From Deltaproteobacteria bacterium (GTDB lineage Bacteria > Myxococcota > Myxococcia > Myxococcales > Anaeromyxobacteraceae): a stretch of DNA of 64,000 nucleotides. The stretch's first letter is position 1. Each line of letters begins with the position of its first letter. The notes under the pieces are model-generated. The model saw nothing but the letters and a program-made list of their open reading frames with translations, was not told where the DNA came from and did no database searches. The stretch is from contig JACRMN010000013.1 in NCBI GenBank assembly GCA_016214955.1, forward strand, positions 62,001 to 126,000, read 5' to 3'. The position numbers were made by a program, and so were the translations under genes. This document shows, one piece after another, positions 29,116 through 31,148 of the stretch.

Positions 29116-30489
29116 CTAGCGGGGAACGGGGGCGGAGCGCCCCGCGGCCGTGGGCACGTACTGCAGCGGCAGCAGCATGGTGAAGACGGCGCCGCGTTCG
29201 GGCTGGGAGGAGACCCTGACCTCGCCGCCGTGGGCCTCGACGAAGCTCTTGACGATGGCCAGGCCCAGGCCGGCGCCGCCGTACTCGCGGGTCGAGGAGC
29301 CGTCCACCTGGTAGAAGGTCTCGAAGATCTTGCGCTGGTTCTCCTCGGAGATGCCGATGCCGGTGTCCATCACCTGCACGGCCAGCCGCCCGCCGCGCGG
29401 CTCGGCGGCCACGGTGATGGTGCCGTTCTGCGGGGTGAACTTGACGGCGTTGTTCACCAGGTTGATGAGGCACTGGCGGACCTTCTCGCGGTCGCAGGTG
29501 ATGCGCGGCAGCTCGCCGGGCTCGCAGACCAGCTGCAGCCCCTTCTTGCGGGCCTGGGGCATGACCGTGGCCACCGAGTCCTTCATGAGCTGGCCCACGT
29601 CCACCTCGCTCACCACCAGCCGGATGCGGCCGGCCTCGATCTTGGTGATGTCGAGGATGGAGGTGATGAGCTGGAGCAGGCTCTCGCCCTTCTCCATGAT
29701 GATCTGCAGGTACTCGCGCTGCTCGGCGGTGAGCGGCCCGCCCAGCCCCTCCAGCATCATCTCCGAGTAGCCGATGACGCTGGTGAGCGGCGTGCGCAGC
29801 TCGTGGCTCATGGTGGCCAGGAAGTTGGACTTGAGCCGATCGAGCTCCTTGAGCCTGCCGAAGCTCTCCTCCAGCAGCCTGTTCTTCTCCTCCAGCTCCC
29901 GGTAGTTCTCCTGCACCGCCTCGATGTGCAGCCGGGCGGTCACCAGGTTCTTGTGGCCGCTGAAGACCAGGACGTCCAGGATCTCGGCGAAGTGGCGGAC
30001 CACCTTGTCGGCGGTGCTGTGGGGCACCCGCCGGATCTTCTGCATGTAGCCCTTGGCCAGCGTCTCGTCGAAGTCCTCGGAGATGCTGGTCAGGGTGCGG
30101 GGCAGCTCCTTCAGGTCGTCGGGGACGAAGGGGCCGAAGACCACGCGGCCGATGGGGTCGCCCTCGTAGAGCACCGTCTGCACCACGTAGCGGCAGCCCG
30201 AGAAGCAGTCGAAGCGGGTGGGGACGCCCTCCTCCGACACCCCGTCGTTCTTCACCCTGCCCACGGTGGCGATGCACTGGGCGCGGCCGTCGGGCTTCTG
30301 CCAGATGTAGCCGCAGAAGTCGGCGTTGCCGACCTTCACGTCCACCAGCTTGTTGCCGCCGCCGTCGAAGACCTTGAGCCCCACCCGGTAGAGCTCGGCG
30401 AAGGACTGGCAGACCTCGGTGAAGGAGCGGACGTCCAGGAGGTCGCCGAGCCCCAGTGTCTGCTGCAGCACCGAGGGCCGGACGTTCAT
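29116..30489 (-). CDS. Soluble hybrid sensor: PocR ligand-binding domain plus histidine kinase
   Basis: 457 residues, no membrane helix. Residues about 15-180 are a PocR domain ([20 protein letters not shown], then DFCGYIWQ and [21 protein letters not shown]), a PAS-like sensor for small hydrocarbon metabolites, with Cys 27, 59, 72, 95 and 99. A coiled coil ([20 protein letters not shown]) leads to HisKA with H229 ([19 protein letters not shown]) and to HATPase_c with [13 protein letters not shown] (N box), MDTGIGIS and [10 protein letters not shown]. The ATG at 30489 overlaps the mglA stop by 4 bp. The five Cys could bind metal or an iron-sulfur cluster. No receiver or cognate regulator adjacent. 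Confidence 0.9.
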
Positions 30490-31148
30490 CGCGGCGCCCC
30501 GGAGATGTGGCTGAAGATCTGGCCCAGGAACTCGCGCTCCGGCAGGTGCCAGTTGCGCTCCAGACCCACCGCGGCGTCGAGGTTGCGGTAGCAGAGGGTG
30601 AGGAGGATGTGGAGCGTCTCCACCACCCCCTCCCCGCGGATGGCCACCGCCGGGACGACCAGGGGCTTGCCGGCGCCGCGCAGGTCGACCAGGTCGTCGT
30701 CGCGCGAGTCGGGCAAGTCCTTCTTGTTGGCCTGGATGACGATGGGCAGGCTCCTGGGGTCGAGCCCGTTGGCCTCCAGGTTCTTCAGCATGTTGTTCCA
30801 GTAGGCCAGCGTGGCCGCCGACTCGGCCTTGCGGCTGTCGGCGACGAAGACCACCCCGTCCGATCCCTGGAGGACGATGCGCCGGGTGGACTCGTGCATC
30901 ACCTGCCCGGGCACGGTGTAGAGCTTGAGCTTCACCTTGACGCCGGCCGGGGTGCGGAAGAACACCGGCATCATGTCGAAGAAGAGGGTGCGGTCGTCCT
31001 TGGTGTCGAGCGTCATCAGCCGCCCGCGCACCTTGGGGTCGATCTTCTTGAACAGGGCGTCGAGGTTGGTGGTCTTCCCGGACAGCGCGGGGCCGTAGTA
31101 CACGACCTTGAGCGCCACCTCGCGCGTTTCTTGGTTGAACTGGACCAT
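30486..31148 (-). CDS. MglA-type small Ras-like GTPase
   Basis: 220 residues, small-GTPase fold of the MglA subfamily that sets cell polarity in Myxococcus. P-loop YYGPALSGKTTNL (residues 19-28), the MglA-style switch TVPGQ (78-82) in place of DxxG, NKKDL (141-145) for guanine binding, and AIRGEGV (169-175). Length and the leading MVQFNQETREVALKVVYYG match MglA closely. The usual partner and GTPase-activating protein MglB, normally encoded just upstream, is absent; instead the stop overlaps the start of a PocR histidine kinase. So it is either the polarity MglA with MglB elsewhere, or a paralogue tied to the kinase. The start ATG at 31148 gives the standard N-terminus. Confidence 0.88.
   Translation of the reverse strand: MVQFNQETREVALKVVYYGPALSGKTTNLDALFKKIDPKVRGRLMTLDTKDDRTLFFDMMPVFFRTPAGVKVKLKLYTVPGQVMHESTRRIVLQGSDGVVFVADSRKAESAATLAYWNNMLKNLEANGLDPRSLPIVIQANKKDLPDSRDDDLVDLRGAGKPLVVPAVAIRGEGVVETLHILLTLCYRNLDAAVGLERNWHLPEREFLGQIFSHISGAPR

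Follow-up and report, generated by a model that had tools for sequence, protein, structure and literature searches.

Genes of the locus

The window, i.e. the whole stretch of 64,000 nucleotides that was analysed, belongs to the genome of a Deltaproteobacteria bacterium of the family Anaeromyxobacteraceae. It carries a two-gene operon in which a gene encoding an MglA-family small GTPase is followed by a gene encoding a soluble histidine kinase (Table 1). The overlap between the GTPase stop codon and the kinase start codon, reported in the initial annotation, was confirmed.

Table 1. Features of the locus and of its surroundings (positions in the window)
Feature	Position	Strand	Remarks
sofG ortholog, MglA-family Group 1 small GTPase	30486..31148	-	220 aa
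Soluble histidine kinase, PocR-HisKA-HATPase_c	29116..30489	-	457 aa
Overlap of the two genes (GTPase stop codon, kinase start codon)	30486..30489	-	4 bp
thiL (thiamine-phosphate kinase)	28153..29103	-	12 bp after the kinase gene
Chemosensory cluster (MCP, CheW, CheY, CheA, CheC)	23181..28071	-	Resembles dif of Myxococcus
Two genes after the CheC gene, presumably LarB- and LarC-like	21264-23184		First-named (LarB-like) syntenic in several relatives
Another kinase gene	31553-33310	+	Upstream of the pair, opposite direction
ORF, presumably a REP-associated transposase	33213-34477		Apparent repeated short peptides in overlapping ORFs beside it

The kinase displays the three domains of a PocR-domain histidine kinase, all above the Pfam cut-offs: a PocR-type sensor (residues 16-178; E = 3.6e-22; 79.3 bits for a cut-off of 23.9), HisKA (residues 220-287; 77.1 bits for a cut-off of 26.9), and HATPase_c (residues 333-443; 109.9 bits for a cut-off of 26.4). 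A long helix extends over residues 157-204 and His229 lies within the motif SHELRTP. The kinase of the window has no conspicuous transmembrane segment (maximal 19-residue hydropathy of 1.0); in the kinases of its relatives, the N-terminal part reaches a hydropathy of up to 1.9 in 19-residue windows. The GTPase matches solved MglA structures by sequence search (E from 2e-43 to 3e-40), and its structural model (pLDDT 87) is MglA-like, with 6izw as the best match (E = 4.6e-21). Its C-terminal tail is of the SofG type and contains a conserved E-x-E-F-L near residues 204-208.

Then, we counted conserved residues in 81 GTPase and 76 kinase sequences. Arginine R53 and most P-loop residues of the GTPase are found in 80 out of 81 sequences. 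In the TVPGQ motif, T78, P80, G81, and Q82 are invariant (81/81) and V79 nearly so (78/81); N141, K142, and D144 are also present in all 81 sequences, and Phe207 of the tail in 79. According to section 15 of PMC4316618, Group 1 of the MglA family is recognized by an arginine beside the G2 threonine and by TVPGQ in G3, and the GTPase of the window possesses both features. For the kinase, H229, N347, and D375/G377/G379 are each conserved in the 76 sequences. The predicted catalytic residues of both proteins are thus intact.

Identity of the GTPase

The initial annotation had considered this GTPase as a polarity MglA. A phylogeny of 44 proteins contradicts this reading and places it in a separate clade: the 24 orthologs of the window GTPase form a single clade (support 100/100), the MglA proteins coupled to MglB a second one (99/98), and a set of proteins of 344-393 aa a third one (95/80). 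As SofG of M. xanthus itself is not among these 44 proteins, the identification with SofG rests on protein length and gene order. For this purpose, we used as reference a complete Myxococcus-type genome (G012, locus L078), the genus of which was deduced from its gene content. The ortholog in this genome is 239 aa long when read from its TTG start, the other MglA paralogs being 195 and 373 aa long. SofG of M. xanthus is likewise described as an orphan protein of 239 aa with the Group 1 arginine (PMC4316618). At L078, the gene of a di-haem oxidoreductase comes first, followed by two other genes, then by those of the kinase, the GTPase, and a GNAT protein. In M. xanthus, MXAN 6699 is listed as the thiol oxidoreductase FbdA and MXAN 6704 as an acetyltransferase (PMC2129111, Table 1), the latter being independently termed GNAT (PMC4048283). 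By simple count between FbdA at 6699 and the acetyltransferase at 6704, the kinase gene would be 6702 and the GTPase gene 6703. This last gene, MXAN_6703, is the one that we take to be sofG. On the basis of clade, length, and gene order, the GTPase of the window is almost certainly the ortholog of SofG.

The absence of mglB beside the GTPase gene was verified: none occurs within four genes of it, and the four roadblock/LC7 places of the genome (one of them just below the cut-off) are all on other contigs. The best of these places directly precedes a gene encoding a 195-aa MglA, which makes a canonical mglB-mglA operon (about G000:C4:203253-204329). We therefore dropped the idea, implied by the initial annotation, that MglB is absent from the genome. 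The lack of mglB beside sofG only marks an orphan paralog. This genome contains only two MglA matches.

Conservation of the sofG-kinase pair

At least some MglA match was detected in each of the 145 Myxococcia genomes, and 136 places of the sofG type in 135 of them. A PocR part lies directly downstream, on the same strand and with E<=1e-20, at 127 of these 136 places (126 genomes). For eight of the nine remaining places, the kinase is present with a diverged PocR domain (about 28-34% identity). The ninth (G082) is split over two contigs, the first of which ends with a piece of sofG, and the second of which starts with the end of a GTPase frame, followed by the kinase. Among the 10 Myxococcia genomes without a sofG match, 8 also lack a PocR match at E<=1e-20. 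Within the same ten genomes, a shortened GTPase precedes the kinase in G111, and G138 (69% complete) has a match for the PocR kinase and none for sofG.

Of the 195 genomes of the phylum, 166 match at E<=1e-46. Outside Myxococcia, 30 genomes match, and the kinase is located downstream in all 24 loci that were fetched. In one of them (L070, genome G158), no PocR match could be detected in the kinase that follows sofG, the sensor of which may have been lost or exchanged. In genome G143 (loci L020 and L046; bin 74% complete), a TAA stop codon interrupts the sofG frame and the kinase follows; this interruption may be an error or the mark of a pseudogene.

Of 83 distinct loci, which include close relatives and do not represent 83 independent events, 72 show an overlap of precisely 4 bp; the start codons in these 72 are ATG (55), GTG (15), and TTG (2). 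Such a proportion indicates that the overlap is conserved beyond chance. Over 74 loci, the distances of SofG correlate with those of the kinase (0.81) and of PocR (0.75); uncorrected for relatedness, these values were not used as evidence. The pair of genes is kept across Myxococcia and the phylum. The initial annotation had named two observations as speaking against its own reading, a canonical mglBA operon elsewhere in the genome and an unconserved pair: the former exists, and the pair is clearly conserved.

The PocR domain

The five cysteines noticed in the PocR region (27, 59, 72, 95, and 99) are indeed present. Their conservation among the 76 kinases is unequal: C59 is found in 74 sequences, C72 in 73, C95 in 75, C27 in 43, and C99 in 24. 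Moreover, C59, C72, and C95 are each present in 13 out of 13 PocR domains that are not linked to sofG. The suggestion of a special metal or iron-sulfur site was thus set aside, three of the five cysteines being shared with the other PocR domains examined, for instance that of L036, the second PocR protein of the genome of the window. By comparison with these other PocR-domain sensor kinases, the sofG-linked domains are marked by Tyr101 and Gly119-Pro120, which occur in 54 out of 54 of them and are rare or absent in the 13 unlinked ones. This signature shows that the sofG-linked PocR domains form a distinct subfamily. The name of the PocR family suggests that this domain may sense a metabolite. 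Given the locus without a PocR match (L070) and the eight drifted sensors, the ligand need not be common to all members.

Two sequence searches of this PocR domain against solved structures returned nothing useful, with one chance-level match each. Its model (pLDDT 93) is predicted to adopt a GAF/PAS-like fold. With Foldseek, the best match of the model has an E-value of 5e-4 and a low TM score. With VIA-align, the model aligns with IclR (Z = 10.2), MglC (Z = 9.4; 107 residues, 2.8 Å), a GAF domain (Z = 9.1), and MglB (Z = 8.9). As these scores are nearly tied, the likeness to roadblock proteins reflects a shared fold only and implies no function. A roadblock-like contact between PocR and SofG is conceivable from this model.

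Proposed function and alternative explanations

We propose that the two genes form the sofG signalling operon of Myxococcota, with SofG and the kinase probably working in one pathway. The overlapping genes would allow SofG and the kinase, a cytoplasmic sensor of the PocR type, to be produced together. PocR would bind a small ligand or a metal, and this binding would set the activity or the dimer state of the kinase, which would in turn control the time or the place of SofG activity. SofG would then position the motor ATPases of type IV pili, as it does in M. xanthus, where it acts with the bactofilin BacP on PilB and PilT (PMC5703909, PMC4316618). An action of the kinase in the SofG pathway is likely, and most likely it is the signalling partner of SofG; it may act either on SofG itself or by way of a response regulator. 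The neighbourhood of sofG fits a role in pili, with genes encoding PilT-family ATPases on one side in Myxococcaceae and dif-like genes on the other side. A strong PilM match was found in the 22 sofG-bearing genomes tested (22/22), and also in 9 out of 18 genomes for which sofG gave no match. Type IV pili therefore do not require sofG.

A possible, though not a probable, alternative is that the kinase signals through a distant response regulator, as in an ordinary two-component pathway, e.g. in the dif/exopolysaccharide network, and never acts on SofG. Both genes would then share an operon because they serve pilus-dependent behaviour, a point on which this explanation overlaps with the proposed one. 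The enzyme is indeed a standard HisKA/HATPase kinase with intact motifs, a dif-like cluster containing CheY adjoins the kinase gene in the window as well as in many relatives, and myxobacteria are known to use orphan kinases with a distant regulator, such as SgmT-DigR (PMC3509222). However, sofG is a constant neighbour of the kinase gene with a 4-bp overlap, and Myxococcus-type genomes keep the pair while the thiL/dif side is separated from it. A passive synteny of two genes without any common function is highly improbable. The genes thiL and those of the chemosensory cluster are also syntenic in many relatives; nevertheless, the pair is kept across the phylum while its neighbours vary (GNAT and PilT-type ATPases in Myxococcaceae, the other kinase upstream in the window), and it is intact in several genomes where thiL is displaced. 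The exact overlap in 72 of the 83 loci and the absence of a PocR match (E<=1e-20) in 8 of the 10 Myxococcia genomes without a sofG match also argue against it.

Two further alternatives concern MglB. That the GTPase would be a second polarity MglA served by an MglB encoded elsewhere is compatible with the presence of mglB in the genome. This remains quite improbable, as the protein shares only 41-42% identity with the MglB-coupled MglA of the same genome and falls in a separate clade. The PocR model is at the origin of another, rather unlikely alternative, in which PocR itself replaces MglB: with its roadblock-like fold, this domain would dock on SofG, and the binding of the ligand or the state of the kinase would directly alter the nucleotide cycle of SofG. 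If this were true, SofG would act as the output of a two-component-like system dispensing with a response regulator.

Comparison with known systems

Its clade, the gene order, and the length of the L078 ortholog link the GTPase of the window to SofG of M. xanthus, and both proteins are orphans with the arginine finger and the TVPGQ motif. They differ in that no coupled sensor kinase is mentioned for SofG in the passages found in open papers, and in that the organism of the window is a relative from the Anaeromyxobacter family. With the MglA-MglB polarity module, the GTPase shares its family and fold; unlike the MglA of this module, it has no adjacent MglB, belongs to a separate clade, and possesses an extra C-terminal tail. 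The conservons of actinobacteria (CvnA kinase, CvnB roadblock protein, CvnC, and CvnD GTPase) also bring together, in one operon without a response regulator, a histidine kinase and a GTPase of the MglA family. However, no roadblock gene is present at the locus or on its contig, the kinase is a soluble protein that carries a PocR sensor, and the GTPase has the residues of Group 1 (arginine finger, TVPGQ) and not of Group 2.

Few orphan Ras-like GTPases of bacteria have a known role in cell biology, and SofG is among them. According to PMC4316618, its GTPase-activating protein is unknown and MglB does not help SofG to hydrolyse GTP; another paper presents MglB as the GAP of SofG. A kinase gene overlapping with sofG across the phylum makes a strong candidate, on genomic grounds, for a regulator of SofG. 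As this regulator is unsettled in print, the conserved kinase makes the question directly testable. The gene neighbourhoods of Group 1 are described as widely variable (PMC4316618, section 18), so a fixed neighbour for one branch of Group 1 is not described in that section. No link between SofG and a kinase was found in the literature searched, which was mostly open access; the original study (Bulyha et al. 2013) may mention the kinase. Within this literature, the phylum-wide conservation of the sofG-kinase pair appears to be new.

Neighbouring genes and other observations

The gene thiL is syntenic in many relatives and lies apart from the pair in Myxococcus-type genomes. The chemosensory cluster is called dif-like on the basis of what we take to be the dif gene order of Myxococcus. 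In M. xanthus, DifA, DifC, and DifE correspond to MXAN 6696, 6694, and 6692 (PMC2129111, Table 1), and the dif genes are involved in exopolysaccharide production and pilus-dependent motility (PMC4671073). In Myxococcaceae, the genes divergent from sofG encode a GNAT acetyltransferase and two ATPases of the T2SSE type, among which one belongs to the PilT family (L078:5864-9681). These T2SSE/PilT-family genes are a second genomic tie of SofG to pilus motors. The M. xanthus counterpart of the L078 GNAT is reported to be necessary for fruiting (PMC4048283).

The third group of MglA-family paralogs (344-393 aa; L117-L122, L105, L106, and L094) carries a long C-terminal extension and is closer to MglA (52-61% identity) than SofG is. 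None was found in the genome of the window, and no mglB was found in the stretches fetched around these genes. The repeated short peptides beside the transposase-like ORF suggest DNA repeats. Finally, the genome of the window contains three bactofilin matches and seven T2SSE matches (one T2SSE below the cut-off), and its best bactofilin match is located on the same contig as sofG (G000:C30:130468-130758), about 4.5 kb past the end of the window.
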